The translations under genes and the position numbers were made by a program. The notes beneath the pieces are model-generated. The model was given only the letters and a program-made list of their open reading frames with translations, did not search any database and was not told where the DNA came from. From the IMG/VR virus record IMGVR_UViG_3300013093_000001, positions 49,906-113,905 of that record: a DNA stretch of 64,000 nucleotides; one strand, given 5' to 3'. Shown in pieces: positions 39,383 to 50,036 of the stretch. The stretch is from a virus. Each line of letters starts with the position of its first letter. Within the stretch, counting starts at the first letter, position 1.

Positions 39383-39799
39383 CTACGACACCGCCTGTCG
39401 CATCAGGTCCGAGAACTCCATAAGGTGGCCGTACTTACGTTTCAGGTCACCGATTTCCCGCTGGAGCTCTTTCAACAGGATTTTCGTTAGGAACTCATCC
39501 TGTACTAGTTCCTCTGTCGGAATGTACCCAGTCCGTCTGTCGCCAGCTTCATGGAATGACTGGAAAGCCCTCACGTACCGACGCTCTCCAGACGGCGCAT
39601 CGGGTATTTGAATGCGTACAGACCTCACCAACTCAGCAGCCTGTACCTTCCGGTAAGCCTCTCCCGCAACGGTGTCGTCCCATTCAAACCGATGGTGGAG
39701 GGGCGCGTCCAACGGACGCGCCTCCTCGACAACCAGTTCTGGCGTTAACTCACCGTGGTTACGGTAAATTGCCGTCAAAACATCACGCAGGTTTGACAT
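39383..39799 (-). CDS. Conserved phage protein
   Basis: 138 residues, start overlapping the upstream stop (TGATG). HGELTPELVVEEARPLDAPLHHRFEWDDTVAGEAYR is a pattern seen in many phage and prophage proteins; C-terminal coiled coil. Function unknown. Confidence 0.7.
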   Translation of the reverse strand: MSNLRDVLTAIYRNHGELTPELVVEEARPLDAPLHHRFEWDDTVAGEAYRKVQAAELVRSVRIQIPDAPSGERRYVRAFQSFHEAGDRRTGYIPTEELVQDEFLTKILLKELQREIGDLKRKYGHLMEFSDLMRQAVS

Positions 39800-40461
39800 C
39801 AGCCTTCAATGCCAATCTCAACACTGCGGTCCACCTCGTACGTCCCGTACTCACCACGCTTTTCTGGCCGCCACTCACCGACCCCAATACCCATGCCGCC
39901 AGCGTCAATGAGAGACAGCACGCTGTTGCGGTCAATGGATGACTTGACGTAGGTCACCGTCAGTACCGTCGTCCATTCGGGGAACATTGGACGGTATCGC
40001 AGGTCAGCCGACCGGGATGGACCGCCTAACCTGACCACGTCCTCACGCATCTCCGGTACACCCTTGATTTCGACCAACATTTGCGGGTCGGCCTTAGTCA
40101 AAACGCCGCGAAAAAACAGGAACTGCCGCAACGCCGTCATCGTGATGGACTTGTCGTAGAACCTGGCCGCGCTTGTCGTCGCCGCCTTAAACGCGGTGAC
40201 AGGGAAGCCGTAAGCCTCTACCGGCTGGTCCGGTGTTCCCACGTTCGGCATGTCACTACGCAGGATGCGGTAAAAAGATGCCTCATACTCTGCTTTGGGG
40301 TCGCGGATTTCCTTGACCTTTTTCTTACCTTGCTGCGCCTCCAGCATCTGCCGCTTAGACTTCTCGCTAAAGTTGTGGACAATCAGCGGAGATGTACCGA
40401 TGATCGGTACATACAGCGTTTCTACGTCAATTCTGTCTAGCTTTACGTTATCTGTCGTCAC
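39799..40461 (-). CDS. Conserved phage protein, possible nucleic-acid binder
   Basis: 220 residues from GTG 40461. IIGTSPLIVHNFSEKSK, then EYEASFYRILRS and GMGIGVGEWRPEKRGEYGTYEV. Frequent in phages with DUF932 proteins. A RAMP-like ferredoxin fold is possible but not established. Preceded by the only hairpin unit outside the main block. Confidence 0.65.
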   Translation of the reverse strand: MTTDNVKLDRIDVETLYVPIIGTSPLIVHNFSEKSKRQMLEAQQGKKKVKEIRDPKAEYEASFYRILRSDMPNVGTPDQPVEAYGFPVTAFKAATTSAARFYDKSITMTALRQFLFFRGVLTKADPQMLVEIKGVPEMREDVVRLGGPSRSADLRYRPMFPEWTTVLTVTYVKSSIDRNSVLSLIDAGGMGIGVGEWRPEKRGEYGTYEVDRSVEIGIEG

Positions 40462-40560: not shown

Positions 40561-40617
40561 GCCACGCCTGCTGACCCGCATATATATATATACGGTAAAT
40601 AAAACCGGCTTACTTCA

Positions 40618-41250
40618 CCAGGCCAACTTGTCATGCCCAGCACTGCCTGCCGTGCTAAGCCCAGCCCAGCCGCACCAAACCCGACCTCGCCGTACCGTAC
40701 CTCGCCTGCCTCGCCGTGCCAGACCCGACCTCGCCATGCCAGACCTCACCGCGCCAAACCGTACCGCGCCCCGCCTGCCATGCCATGCCTTGCGATGCCA
40801 TGCCGTACCACGCCTCACCTTGCCTGCCTCGCTAGCCTCACCTTGCCTGCCTCGCCATACCATTCCTCGCCTCGCCTTGCCGCGCCTGCCTTGCCACACC
40901 CTGCCTCGACACGCCAAGCAAAGCCCAGCCTCGCCTGCCATGACTTGCCTCAACGTGACATACCCGGCCTTGACCCGCCTGCCCTGCCTTGACTTGCCTC
41001 GACTTGCCTCAACCAGCCTCGACTGCCGCGCCACACCGCGCCAGACCGCGCCATCCACACCCAGCCGCTCCGTGCCTCGACTGCGTCGCCGCGCCATGCC
41101 TGACCGGGACTGCCTCGCCATACCAGGCCGTGCCGTGCCATGCCAAACCGCGCCCTGCCCGGTCCCGCCATGCCTTGCCACGCCTTGACTGCCGTGACTT
41201 GACAAACCCCGCCGTGCCCAACCAAACCTGACCATGCCTGCCAGCCAGCT
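40618..41250. repeat. Period-5 degenerate repeat array
   Basis: About 630 bases made of NNRCC units (plus sense; GGYNN on minus), such as TCGCC, ATGCC, TTGCC and CGACC, with only occasional phase shifts. Over 120 units. Open frames exist on both strands only because such repeats avoid stops; no SD or gene is seen. Confidence 0.85.
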
Positions 41251-41275: not shown

Positions 41276-41320
41276 GTATGGCAGTCCCGGCGACGGAGGT
41301 AGACACCGGGACCGCCATAC
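41276..41320 (-). terminator. Hairpin downstream of the DUF932 gene
   Basis: GTATGGCGGTCCCGG paired with CCGGGACTGCCATAC (one mismatch), 15-base loop, about 35 bases beyond the stop of 41354-42421. No U-run on the minus strand; CTTATTTTAG follows on the plus strand. Confidence 0.5.
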
Positions 41321-42767: not shown

Positions 42768-43499
42768 CTAGTTGCTCACAACCTGCTGCGGTTTGATGAT
42801 GAATGGTGCACCAGACAAGCCATGACGTATCCGCGCTGGAGAGCTCGTCTTACTGAGGAAGTCGTGGACTGCGCGGCAACAGCCGTCCCAGGCCCAGTAG
42901 TCGTCAATGAGGACAACGCCGCCTGGGACAACACTATCCCAAAACGCGTCGAGGCAGATCATGGTGGAGTCGTACCAGTCTGCGTCTAGGCGCAACACCG
43001 CAATCTTTTCTGGTTTCAAACAGGTGGGCAGTGTGTCTTCAAAAAAACCGGGTGTGATGTGTACGCTTTGAGGTTGCGGCGCTCTCGACAGGGTATCAAC
43101 GAAGGTTTTTGCTGACGCGGAGCAGTTATTGCGGTAGTACGGCCCCTCAACGTCACGCTGCCATTCCAGTGCAGATTGTCCGTCAATTTCCTGTGCTGGC
43201 GGCATACCTTGGAAAGAGTCGAAGAAGAAATAGTCGCGCTTAGGACCACATACTTCAATTAGAGCCGCCGACATGCCGCCCTTCCATGTCCCGCACTCTA
43301 TGACCGCGCCGCCTTTGCCTGCCAGATGACTGGCGACGATAGCGATGTTGTCAACGAATTGCAGCAGTGGGATCATGCTGCGGTCGCGGTACTTGTTATA
43401 TAGGTGTAGGCCGCGCAACCAGGAACTACTGTAACGCATGGCTCGCTGCGCGGAAAGTTGTTCGGGACGGATTAGTCTCAAATCTAGCTTCGGCAACAT
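42768..43499 (-). CDS. TylF-like SAM methyltransferase
   Basis: 243 residues from ATG 43499 (TTG 43505 possible). GGAVIECGTWKGGMSAALIE (SAM motif I), FFFDSFQGMP, ITPGFFEDTLPTC, AVLRLDADWYDSTMICLDAFWDSVVPGGVVLIDDYWAW: this set is characteristic of macrocin O-methyltransferase TylF, a sugar O-methylating family. With four glycosyltransferases nearby, methylation of a transferred sugar is a reasonable inference. Confidence 0.9.
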   Translation of the reverse strand: MLPKLDLRLIRPEQLSAQRAMRYSSSWLRGLHLYNKYRDRSMIPLLQFVDNIAIVASHLAGKGGAVIECGTWKGGMSAALIEVCGPKRDYFFFDSFQGMPPAQEIDGQSALEWQRDVEGPYYRNNCSASAKTFVDTLSRAPQPQSVHITPGFFEDTLPTCLKPEKIAVLRLDADWYDSTMICLDAFWDSVVPGGVVLIDDYWAWDGCCRAVHDFLSKTSSPARIRHGLSGAPFIIKPQQVVSN

Positions 43500-43566
43500 G
43501 GGCAAAGTCTACATCCTGCGTCTGATGAACGTGCACCGAAAGCCAGTGCTGTGTGACAATGAGTAA

Positions 43567-44307: not shown

Positions 44308-45923
44308 CTGCCGCGTTTGTTGACGAGGTCATCCCCGCGCAGGGGAGTACCACGCCACGCATTTACACCAAGCCCCTGGATGTCAACTGCACTGGTCAGG
44401 TTGATGACGAGGAGTGCATTTGCGGGTGTGGACTCAACCCTGACACGTCGTGGGGTTTCGACTGCATCGACTTCCTCCTCAATGTGTGTCATTGGCAGCT
44501 TATGCCCTGGCAGGAGTGGTTGTATGTGCACGCTTTGGAGAAGCAGACAGACGGTACGGGTTTCCGCTTCCAAATCCTTGTCATCCTGGTGGCGCGTCAG
44601 AATGGTAAGTCGCGGTGGCTTAAGGGGCTGGGTTTGTGGCGGCTTTTCCTGTCCCGCTACGGGCGGGTTGACGCTCATTGTCCTGGCGCTCGACTCGCTG
44701 TCATCGCTGCTCAGAACCTTGACTATGCGGAGAATATGCTCAAGGAGGTTGTTGACGAAATCCGTGACAACCCGCTGCTGTGCCGTGAGCTGATTAACCA
44801 CCGGGTCACCAATGGTAAACACAGGGCTATCCTCACTAACCGCCGTTACTGGCGTGCCGCCACCGCGTCCCGTAAAGGCGCTCGTTCGTTGTCGGTAGAC
44901 ATAGCCATGTTGGATGAGTTGCGTGAGCATACGACGTGGGATGCGTGGAATGCTATTGTCCCGACGACGACGGTACGCCGATACAGCCAGGTGGTGTGTA
45001 CCAGCAACGCGGGAGACAGCCGCAGTGAGGTGTTGAGAGCGGCCAGGGATGGCGCTATGCGCCGCGTGTTGACGGGCGAAACGGAGAACACCAGGATCGG
45101 GTTGTTTGAGTGGAGTGTTCCTATGGAGGAAGACCCTAAAGACCCGGCGTTTTGGCACATGGCTAACCCGTCTATGGGTTTACTGAATGATTTTTCGCTG
45201 GATGATTTGCGTGGCTATTTGGAGGCAATGGAGTATAGGAACTTGGCTGGCTTTCAAACTGAACACCTGTGTCAGTGGGTTGACTCCCTGCAACCTGGCA
45301 TTTTGCCAGCTGAGCATTGGGCTGAAACTATTGACCCCACCAGTCGCAGAGATGAGTCGGCACCTGTTTTCGCGGCATTGGACGTTAACTATGATAGGAC
45401 GAGAAGCTATGTCTGCATCGCAGGCCGTCGCGCTGACGGTAACTTGCACATTGAAATTGCCGTCGCTGCCAGCGGAACTGACTGGGTTGTTGAGTACCTT
45501 GCGGAACGAAAGAAAAAGTTCAAAGCCGTCGCTGTCCAAAAGACCGGAGCGCCGGTCAGCGGTATGATTGACGACATTAAACGCGCTGGTGTCAAGGTTG
45601 TTGAGTGGGGTCCGAGCAACGAAATTGCTGGGGCCTGCGCCATGCTGTATGACCAGATCACTGAACACCGGATTTTCCACCGGCCAGCCGGAGCCCTGGA
45701 CCGAGCAGCTGCTAGCGGCGTGGCGAGGAATGTCAGTGAGGGTTGGGTGTTTGACCGCCGTAACTCCCCCGTCGACGTGTCGCCTTTAATTGCGTGCGCC
45801 GCTGCGGCATGGTTGGAGCATAAAAGGCCGGGAACGCCTACAGTTCATGAGTGGCCTGATGAAGATGTCATTAGGCAGTGGGAAGAAGAAGGCCGAGGCA
45901 TGGAGGCGCAATGGAAAACGTGA
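44304..45923 (+). CDS. terL: Terminase large subunit
   Basis: 539 residues. Walker A-type VARQNGKS (96-103), Walker B SVDIAMLDE (197-205), coupling region around CTSNAG, then the nuclease domain beginning AALDVNYDRTRSYV with acidic residues. This packages DNA into the prohead and cuts it. The 3' end lies in the first copy of a 47-base tandem duplication, so the C-terminus EEEGRGMEAQWKT is encoded again downstream. Confidence 0.95.
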   Translation: MTAAFVDEVIPAQGSTTPRIYTKPLDVNCTGQVDDEECICGCGLNPDTSWGFDCIDFLLNVCHWQLMPWQEWLYVHALEKQTDGTGFRFQILVILVARQNGKSRWLKGLGLWRLFLSRYGRVDAHCPGARLAVIAAQNLDYAENMLKEVVDEIRDNPLLCRELINHRVTNGKHRAILTNRRYWRAATASRKGARSLSVDIAMLDELREHTTWDAWNAIVPTTTVRRYSQVVCTSNAGDSRSEVLRAARDGAMRRVLTGETENTRIGLFEWSVPMEEDPKDPAFWHMANPSMGLLNDFSLDDLRGYLEAMEYRNLAGFQTEHLCQWVDSLQPGILPAEHWAETIDPTSRRDESAPVFAALDVNYDRTRSYVCIAGRRADGNLHIEIAVAASGTDWVVEYLAERKKKFKAVAVQKTGAPVSGMIDDIKRAGVKVVEWGPSNEIAGACAMLYDQITEHRIFHRPAGALDRAAASGVARNVSEGWVFDRRNSPVDVSPLIACAAAAWLEHKRPGTPTVHEWPDEDVIRQWEEEGRGMEAQWKT

Positions 45924-45975
45924 CACCAGAAGAAGAAGGCCGAGGCATGGAGGCGCAATGGAAAACGTGACACCA
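45882..45975 (+). repeat. 47-base perfect tandem duplication
   Basis: Copies at 45882-45928 and 45929-45975, identical. Each has the end of terL, the SD GGAGGCGCA and the first codons of the next gene. Copy 1 therefore starts a small ORF (45911-45970, MENVTPEEEGRGMEAQWKT) that re-reads the TerL tail, while copy 2 starts the intact gene at 45958. Confidence 0.95.
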
Positions 45976-47687: not shown

Positions 47688-50036
47688 ATGACGGGTATGC
47701 CTGACTATCGGAGCAGAGCTAAGCTGCTTGATGTCCGCGAGGAACGGCGGGGTCGCCGTTTTGAGTTTCGTGAAGACAAAGACAGCAACCAAGTAATCCT
47801 TGAGGGATATGCGGCGACGTTTGAGCCGTATGACGTACATGGCGGTCCAGACGCGGGTGGCTGGGTTGAGAAGCTGGACTTGCGGTGTTTCGACAACACC
47901 CTGGCTGAGCAGCCGGACCTGCAACTCCTCATCAATCATGAGGGTACGCCGCTGGCGCGTACTAAGAGTGGAACGTTGCAGTTGTCGCGGGACCGCCACG
48001 GGCTCCGCGTTCGCGCATCCCTGGACCCCAGCGACCCTGACGTACAGCGACTGATCCCGAAGATGCGGCGCGGCGACATGGATGAAATGTCCTTCGCGTT
48101 CCGTGTTACTGATCAAACATGGGACACCTCCTACACCAACCGGACCATCAACCACCTGAGCCTCGAAAAAGGTGATGTCAGTGTCGTCAATTACGGCATG
48201 AACCCCGGTACCAGGGCTATTTTGTCGGCTGATGCTGTGGGTACGTTGGCGCAACTGTCGGACAAGGAACTGGTGGAGTTGCGGAAGGTGGACCGCAACA
48301 AACTAGCCAGGGCTCAGGCAATCCTGTCGGCGGCTGTTGAGCAGCGCGACACCAAACCGCAGTCCTACAAGCCCCCAGCCGGGGTTAAAGCTGAGGGTAA
48401 ACGCGCTTTGGAGTGGATTAAGGCAGGTCACGCTGGCGCTAACTTCACCGACGTTGGCCGTAAACGCGCTGAGGACTTAGCGCGGGGCGCATCGTTGAGT
48501 TTGGACACAATTAAGCGCATGTCCAGCTATTTGGCGCGTCACGCTGTTGATAAAAAGGGTAAGGGGTGGAGTCCTGGCGAGGACGGCTACCCCTCCCCCG
48601 GTCGTGTCGCGTGGGCCGCGTGGGGTGGTGATCCGGCTGTCTCATGGACACACAGCATCCTCAACGCCAAGGACGATGAGCGTGGCGACAGCAAACCCGC
48701 AAGCGGAGATGTTGCTTACGCCGACCCCGGCTACAAACCGGACGGAAAGAAACGCTACCCCATCGACACTGTAGAGCATTGCCGCGCAGCATGGTCGTAC
48801 ATCAACATGCCGAAAAATCAGGTCGGCTACACGTCGTCCCAGGTCAACTCCATTAAAACCCGCATCAAGGCGGCACTCAAAAAGTTTGGTGTAGATGTGA
48901 GTGAAGCAAAAACTGATGGCAGGGCAATGGACTCTGCAATCACGTCGACCACAAAGTCGCCGCTGCAGCCCGTCCAGTGGGCACCGGACACGACACAAGA
49001 CCCGCACACCATGAATTTCGACATGAAGGACGGCGACTACACCATGATGCCGGACCAGCTTGGCGAAATCCCAGGCAACATTGCCGGTGGCGCGTTAGCA
49101 ACACAACCAGACTTCACGCCGGGACCATTCGGCGACCCCCATGACATTGCGAAGGAGATGCTGGCGATGGACAGCGAAATGGCTCAGTGTACTGACGACC
49201 CGCATGAAACTCCTTACGATGTCGCAGAGGTCAAACGGGACGAGGAAGAAATGGGCATGGACATGGCCGAACGCGCCTACACCGAAGCCGACGTGATGAA
49301 ACTGCTTGCCGGTTTGGACGCGGTCATTGATGAGGCGGGTTGCCTGACTGGTGACATGGACCGCAAAGATTTGCCGGAAGACCTGGGTCAAGCCCTCGAC
49401 CTGTTGGCGGCGGCGCAGGGGTTGATCGACAAAATGATGTGGATGACCGGTACATACGACCCCGACGACCCCAGCAGATCATTGCGTGACGCTAAGGCCG
49501 ACCCTGACGGCGACGGCGACAACGAAGAAGAAGAAACGAAAGACATGGAAGAGGACGACTGCGAGGAAAAGGGCTTCGACTGGTCACTTGCTGAGGCTTT
49601 GGACCGGACCATCGTTCATGCCTACAAACTGGCTGGCGACAACATGGACGTGCGAAAAGCACTAGCTTTTGCGCGGTCACAACTGAAGCAGATGCGTGGC
49701 ATTGACGCGGCAGGTACCAGCGAAATCAGCAAAAAGCTGACGGAGCTGCGTAAAGAGGTCGGGATGCCCGACACTGGTTCTGTCAGCGACGGCCTCAAGT
49801 ACCTGCGTAGCATGGGTGCCGCGCCTGTCGGCTACCGTGGCCTGCTCAACGACCCGACTGCTAAGCAGGACGACCAGATGTGGCCCGGTAAGGCCGGTAT
49901 GTCGCCTGCGGAGTTGTTGGAGAAGGAGCGCCGCGCAAGGGTCGCGCAGAAAGAACTTGAGGAAGCGCAGGAGCGTAACCGTCAAGCGCTCCGCGAGGCT
50001 GAATTGCAGGACGCGATCAGTAGGATGCGGGGGTAG
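47688..50036 (+). CDS. Prohead protease fused to a long C-terminal region
   Basis: 782 residues, SD AGGAGGACA. Residues about 36-190 are a HK97-type protease with H84 in INHEGTPLART and S135 in DEMSFAF. A second region KRALEWIKAGHAGANFTD...KGWSPGEDGYPSPGRVAWAAWGGD and KKRYPIDTVEHCRAAW resembles DUF6582-type segments. The last 350 residues are acidic with a coiled-coil end (ELLEKERRARVAQKELEEAQE), probably the scaffold. Cleaves capsid and scaffold during maturation. Confidence 0.9.
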   Translation: MTGMPDYRSRAKLLDVREERRGRRFEFREDKDSNQVILEGYAATFEPYDVHGGPDAGGWVEKLDLRCFDNTLAEQPDLQLLINHEGTPLARTKSGTLQLSRDRHGLRVRASLDPSDPDVQRLIPKMRRGDMDEMSFAFRVTDQTWDTSYTNRTINHLSLEKGDVSVVNYGMNPGTRAILSADAVGTLAQLSDKELVELRKVDRNKLARAQAILSAAVEQRDTKPQSYKPPAGVKAEGKRALEWIKAGHAGANFTDVGRKRAEDLARGASLSLDTIKRMSSYLARHAVDKKGKGWSPGEDGYPSPGRVAWAAWGGDPAVSWTHSILNAKDDERGDSKPASGDVAYADPGYKPDGKKRYPIDTVEHCRAAWSYINMPKNQVGYTSSQVNSIKTRIKAALKKFGVDVSEAKTDGRAMDSAITSTTKSPLQPVQWAPDTTQDPHTMNFDMKDGDYTMMPDQLGEIPGNIAGGALATQPDFTPGPFGDPHDIAKEMLAMDSEMAQCTDDPHETPYDVAEVKRDEEEMGMDMAERAYTEADVMKLLAGLDAVIDEAGCLTGDMDRKDLPEDLGQALDLLAAAQGLIDKMMWMTGTYDPDDPSRSLRDAKADPDGDGDNEEEETKDMEEDDCEEKGFDWSLAEALDRTIVHAYKLAGDNMDVRKALAFARSQLKQMRGIDAAGTSEISKKLTELRKEVGMPDTGSVSDGLKYLRSMGAAPVGYRGLLNDPTAKQDDQMWPGKAGMSPAELLEKERRARVAQKELEEAQERNRQALREAELQDAISRMRG

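Follow-up and report, generated by a model that had tools for sequence, protein, structure and literature searches.

The window analysed here, a stretch of 64,000 nucleotides covering positions 49,906 to 113,905 of the IMG/VR virus record IMGVR_UViG_3300013093_000001, carries on its minus strand a degenerate array of GGYNN units, which lies beside a gene for a RAMP/Cas7-like protein and a small gene overlapping the latter (Table 1). The array is the only one in the source record of 113,905 bp. Generally, the third position of the unit holds a pyrimidine, in most cases C, the last two are close to random, and G-T or G-A replaces GG in some units. Self-identity of the stretch 40618-41250 at lag 5 is 0.54 versus 0.20-0.32 at lags 1-4 and 6-8, and across the 64 kb the 200-base windows that score highest at lag 5 are all located within the array. 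In addition, five consecutive GGYNN units occur 29 times in the window, always within the array, and shuffled sequences would be expected to give 0.01. The autocorrelation and the counts bear out the 5-base periodicity reported in the preliminary description, and the parse of 40612-41237 on the minus strand into 128 units agrees with its figure of more than 120.

The phase, which had been described as kept for long runs, is kept within segments and not throughout, since steps of 4 bases occur about every 10 units. Neighbouring CC steps lie 5 bases apart in 76 of 109 cases and 4 bases apart in 14, and the slip of one base falls nearly always at a GGCA followed by GGC or GTC, dividing the array into about 11 segments, mostly of 8-16 units. 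In the window array and its relatives, the 4-base step is GGCA in 113 of 127 cases, and the intervals between such steps (n = 105) have a median of 10 full units, with 86% within 7-15. Taken from these intervals in the DNA, the number of repeats per guide is consistent with the 9-16 repeats per vrRNA published for the phage-borne system VIPR (Viral Interference Programmable Repeat; PMC13142463). No structured 3' tail of the SUSP1-clade type was found between the window segments; a terminal stem is found in the arrays of cluster F phages, and there is a possible one at the 3' end of the window array. In S1 and S3-S6, a number of units deviate from GGY, and some guides may therefore be decayed.

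The 'punctuation' unit earlier noted next to the array is a hairpin, with one mismatch in its stem. About 30 hairpins with stems of 12-14 bp are also scattered over 3851-25438 of the window, most of them with a loop resembling GGTTCGACC (or TTTTGAC / TAATGAAC), and this family is probably what the preliminary description called the punctuation block. The gene directly upstream of the array encodes a DUF932 / TIGR03299 phage-plasmid protein (41354-42421, minus strand), and a TylF-like macrocin O-methyltransferase gene is found nearby (42768-43505, minus strand). As well, the window contains a perfect 47-bp tandem duplication (45882-45975) at the 3' end of the terminase gene.

Table 1. Features of the locus in window coordinates; guide assignments are predictions.
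Feature	Position	Strand	Remarks
Putative vrRNA array	40615-41237	-	about 128 GGYNN units; about 11 guide segments; sense strand of vipr operon
S1, guide segment	41190-41233	-	GGCA at end
S2, guide segment	41111-41189	-	15 full units + GGCA; target scans negative
S3, guide segment	41024-41110	-	two internal 4-base steps (CGCA, GGAT)
S4, guide segment	40980-41023	-	many GTC variant units
S5, guide segment	40936-40979	-	GG AA CG AT AC GA AA AT
S6, guide segment	40887-40935	-	GGCA at end
S7, guide segment	40848-40886	-	GGCA at end
S8, short remnant	40825-40847	-	starts with the same 13 bases as S9
S9, guide segment	40776-40824	-	GGCA at end
S10, guide segment	40707-40775	-	GG GC AC TT GC GA CT AT GA CG CT AC GA
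S11, guide segment	40648-40706	-	target scans negative
Array 3' end	40615-40647	-	GCTTAGCAC/GTGCTGGGC able to pair across last GGCA/GGCA step
Hairpin, 15-bp stem	41276-41320		just 5' of array (sense direction), between DUF932 gene stop and first unit
vipr	39799-40461	-	RAMP / Cas7-like Vipr protein, 220 aa, phrog_4652
Candidate vap (VIPR accessory protein)	39383-39799	-	phrog_15946, 138 aa, overlaps vipr stop

The Vipr protein and its association with arrays

The gene vipr is intact in the window, and its product matches phrog_4652 in PHROG at 1.1e-41. The family profile of phrog_4652 found one sequence in the PDB, 36pp, 'SUSP1 Vipr protein' (E 3.5e-38), with the C-terminal Gly-rich RAMP loop aligned, and the window protein as a single sequence matched the same entry at 3.2e-4 (phmmer). 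Moreover, its AlphaFold model (pLDDT 92, pTM 0.87) has Csm3/Cas7 structures as PDB neighbours (Foldseek E down to 8e-6; VIA-align Z 11.8). The window protein combines the RAMP/RRM fold and Gly-rich loop of Vipr with homology to a known member. Pfam returned nothing but one weak stray match over 67 family members, and neither PADLOC nor NCBIfam gave a match for vipr or the candidate vap. The latter is a candidate accessory gene of the VIPR system, whose family phrog_15946 is present in 25 of the 92 array loci described below; a fold search of its model (pLDDT 91.5) gave no significant PDB match.

A search for similar arrays in other DNA, which had been proposed beforehand, found them in cluster-F mycobacteriophages and in viral contigs. 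Ten GGY in phase were found in at least 120 stretches of viral contigs. These stretches vary widely in NN and are often interrupted by stops in every frame; their G-rich strand usually coincides with the sense strand of the preceding gene, and the array begins a few bases past the stop of that gene. Among viral loci selected by their NN-diverse array, 76 of 92 contain a phrog_4652 member, the examined DNA breaking off at the array in most of the others, and the arrays near 94 phrog_4652 members, counted in loci chosen in the same way, lie on the sense strand in 127 cases versus 2 on the other. In the reverse test, loci were collected with the window Vipr protein alone and were thus unbiased by the array; eight of the nine contain an array, and the remaining one is truncated by the end of its contig. 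The window array itself is intergenic, flanks vipr and lies on the same strand.

Six genome-contig loci also carry the family beside such arrays, including a Thermoplasmata MAG and a Patescibacteria MAG. The homologue lies at 632-1210 of the archaeal locus (L178) and at 519-1118 of the Patescibacteria locus (L135). In isolated phages, UmaThurman gp39 and Saal gp51 are homologous to the window Vipr and adjoin GGYNN arrays, and the Saal tblastn match extends from gp51 to the gp52 boundary. The actinophage proteins of phrog_4652 are direct homologues of the window Vipr located beside GGYNN arrays, but they are annotated as hypothetical, and the name VIPR is absent from the records examined. A likely function can now be attached to phrog_4652, as well as to numerous phage genes annotated as 'hypothetical'.

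Seven cluster-F mycobacteriophages carry related arrays in which whole segments have been gained or lost. When these arrays are aligned, the mismatches at G, G and Y are 0, 11 and 0 of about 945 cells each, versus 175 and 138 at the two N positions (11 versus 313 in all), so that conserved GGY alternates with hypervariable NN. Slow evolution of GGY and fast evolution of NN are predicted for a protein-bound scaffold carrying a variable guide. The evolution of the array is visible between sister phages, in which NN is altered, GGY is retained and units appear or disappear, and the arrays of Saal and BobaPhett differ by 5-nt unit gains. In cluster F, the array belongs to the early operon, where genes for Cro/repressor, antirepressor and excisionase are its neighbours (L002, L256-L261).

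Guide sequences and their predicted targets

VIPR is described in the main text of a 2026 preprint (PMC13142463, bioRxiv 2026.04.26.720920), in which GGY is held by the protein and NN serves as a noncontiguous guide. The NN pairs recognise double-stranded DNA as NNxNNx (NNxNNxNN), with a 1-nt skip and wobble alignment, and the resulting RNP represses transcription, mostly of competing phages and prophages (PMC13142463). Across 493 segments of the arrays collected here, NN usage is correlated with codon positions 1-2 (r 0.61) and uncorrelated with the other frames, and guides are therefore readable as degenerate peptides. All-against-all guide scans of the array loci are near background except at the 1-nt skip.

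With the published skip, S10 reads GAT[FL]A[DE]L[IM][DE]RL. Its pattern of 11 units (22 bases) was scanned with up to 3 mismatches against 150 Mycobacteriales genomes and gave 53 matches versus 3 for the reversed pattern, while the permuted-order control gave 7, all at 3 mismatches. Both matches with 1 mismatch are integrases, as are 6 of the 7 examined among those with at most 2. The matched integrases carry HDxRH(T/S)GA...GAT(L/V)AELMxRLGHST. In addition, the 8-unit seed of S10 matched ten viral contigs, four of them in tyrosine integrases and at the same place, and the first 9-unit seed had 5 matches outside integrases, among them a TFAELIDRL motif. The full 13-unit pattern had no match in 397 genomes, and integrase matches emerge when the last two units are removed. 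The NN of these units (AC GA) are unlike those of the integrases (GG CA), and the terminal AC GA is taken to represent 3' units outside the guide. As judged from these sequence matches, S10 is likely to target prophage genes for tyrosine integrases in Mycobacteriales; we place the assignment no higher because homologous integrases count as one event. No recognisable tyrosine integrase is encoded by the 113,905-bp source record itself. S5 matches a prophage integrase gene (L302) at 15 of 16 positions, which is weak on its own, and scans with S2 and S11 found no targets. Of all the window guides, S10 and, weakly, S5 are those to which a target is assigned.

Guides of related arrays can also be read in this way. 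Those of L263 and L268 match the integrase motifs TLDRYGHL and MTLDxYADL. The close relatives L264, L266, L267 and L270 have a common guide with the antisense reading AHELGHLV, and this pattern, with one skipped base, matched at least 120 viral contigs; among the matches listed, 112 run antisense to an ORF, with the wobble register kept in nearly every case. The examples tested belong to Peptidase_M78, that is, ImmA/IrrE proteases with the HELGH motif. ImmA/IrrE proteases cleave phage repressors. Full-length guides reach 22/22 and 25/26 matches, partly by construction because the contigs were found with the shared seed. The most conserved cluster-F guide had no viral-contig match. A guide of another array locus (L012, 3123-3249) matches L120 near 7157 at 19/20 with the 1-nt skip, inside a 289-aa ORF.

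S10 and the guides of relatives, as computational matches, follow the 1-nt-skip rule and point to targets in competing mobile elements. On balance, actinophage arrays might well be stocked with guides that spell conserved motifs of prophage maintenance, such as the integrase core and the HELGH of ImmA/IrrE. Such a guide passes over the wobble base and would therefore silence an entire family of proteins in unrelated prophages; it would be broad-spectrum and act at the level of protein motifs, from within tail-less arrays that have GGCA as their sole punctuation.

Proposed function and rival readings

We consider the array to be the vrRNA guide array of a VIPR system in an actinobacteriophage-like virus (probability about 0.93), and the window locus fits nearly all testable VIPR features. 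The array and vipr would be transcribed together, leftward, and each segment of about 8-16 GGYNN units, ended by GGCA, would give one vrRNA. By analogy, Cas7-like Vipr copies would occupy the GGY triplets of this RNA, the NN pairs would pair with double-stranded DNA and leave out one base at each step, in most cases the wobble base of a codon, and the bound RNP would block transcription of competing phage or prophage genes; assembly of the RNP, the rule of a 1-nt skip and the repression are carried over from what the main text of the preprint describes for other VIPR systems (PMC13142463). The window copy is presumably expressed and active, and its segments may be processed, perhaps at GGCA.

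Two of the functions first suggested for the array, protein binding and a G-rich transcript, went in the right direction, because the G-rich strand is the sense strand of the adjoining vipr. The former is supported as a reading, the array adjoining a gene of the Vipr family, and binding itself would follow by analogy; for the latter, an RNA remains the favoured reading and the sponge gives way to a guide array by homology. Homology to VIPR likewise replaces the suggestions of a packaging or recombination region and of unusual DNA. The N positions do vary, as had been stated, and yet they would not be free, being by the same homology the information-bearing positions.

It is unlikely that the array is a decayed one, or an RNA or protein decoy acting, for example, against other VIPR systems, and does not provide active guides. 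Such a state would account for the many GTC or other variant units in some segments, for the remnant S8 and for the lack of S2 and S11 targets in the scans; however, the units of S10 are clean and its targets form a coherent family that stands up to the controls, vipr is intact, and close relatives hold GGY constant while NN changes. Far less probable is a low-complexity protein-coding gene, for which a 206-aa ORF (40615-41235, minus strand) or a 297-aa ORF on the plus strand could be proposed. One minus-strand frame is open across the array, and ORFs have been annotated there in some relatives, such as Donkeykong gp48 and UmaThurman gp40, but stops are rare in GGYNN because of its composition, with purine-rich N. 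A homologous protein family in one frame, which the preliminary description had named as the result that would make the period a by-product, was searched for, and the ORF that overlaps the array matched no family. Moreover, stops in every frame are found in many of the related arrays, the 5-nt differences between the sister phages break any reading frame, and relatives keep no frame.

A degenerate microsatellite, or a DNA-structure element such as a G-quadruplex or R-loop former or a recombination hot spot, with no protein partner, is equally improbable. The G-rich strand with regular GG is suggestive of it, and pentamer microsatellites exist in bacterial genomes. Indeed, the bacterial genome matches to the GGY scan are mostly plain microsatellites with one or few NN, but the NN-diverse arrays of that scan are mostly those with a vipr gene, and phage arrays have diverse NN, a fixed strand and a fixed partner. 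The window array is NN-diverse and its neighbouring units are not identical, in keeping with the earlier remark that it is no simple microsatellite. In the main, this reading is refuted by the partner-gene and target data.

Other candidates were also set aside. A CRISPR-Cas array was rejected, as there is no repeat-spacer structure and PADLOC gave no match among the neighbours, and binding arrays of TRAP, CsrA, Rho, Chi or SSAP type were dropped once the Vipr match appeared. An Rfam search gave no match.

Comparison with published systems

VIPR is a newly described logic of RNA-guided DNA recognition, which has been proposed to precede CRISPR. It can now be placed in actinobacteriophages, including seven isolated cluster-F mycobacteriophages with culturable hosts, and guides have been decoded to named targets, namely integrase and ImmA protease. 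Target choice, array processing and guide acquisition therewith become testable in laboratory phage-host pairs. The main text of PMC13142463 makes no mention of integrase, protease or mycobacteria, and the motif-level targets and the actinophage setting add to that main text, while its supplementary data may overlap with them.

According to the main text of the preprint, Vipr is a RAMP protein of about 20-25 kDa, vrRNAs lie in intergenic DNA flanking vipr on the same strand, and a small accessory gene (vap1-6) is found alongside (PMC13142463). The window shares with this system the Vipr RAMP protein, the GGY/NN repeats with hypervariable NN, 9-16 repeats per guide, an intergenic sense-strand array carried by a phage, a small adjoining gene, the 1-nt skip with wobble alignment and, as predicted, targets in competing mobile elements. 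The two differ in that the window guides are packed head to tail, mostly with only the GGCA step between them, and no structured tail was found for each guide, whereas vrRNAs of the SUSP1 clade have a conserved structured 3' tail (PMC13142463). The preprint distinguishes seven types, and the staggered or overlapping array types that it describes may be the same as this head-to-tail packing. The Vipr of Escherichia phage SUSP1 (PDB 36pp) is related to the window protein by the family profile match and the Gly-rich RAMP loop, but single-sequence similarity is low, and the SUSP1 vrRNAs are separate and tailed. Compared with Cas7/Csm3 of class 1 CRISPR-Cas, the Cas7-like fold, a protein built along a guide RNA and periodic unpaired positions are held in common; in contrast to CRISPR arrays, the window locus is without palindromic repeats, spacers and other cas genes, and its guides are written in a noncontiguous two-of-five code.
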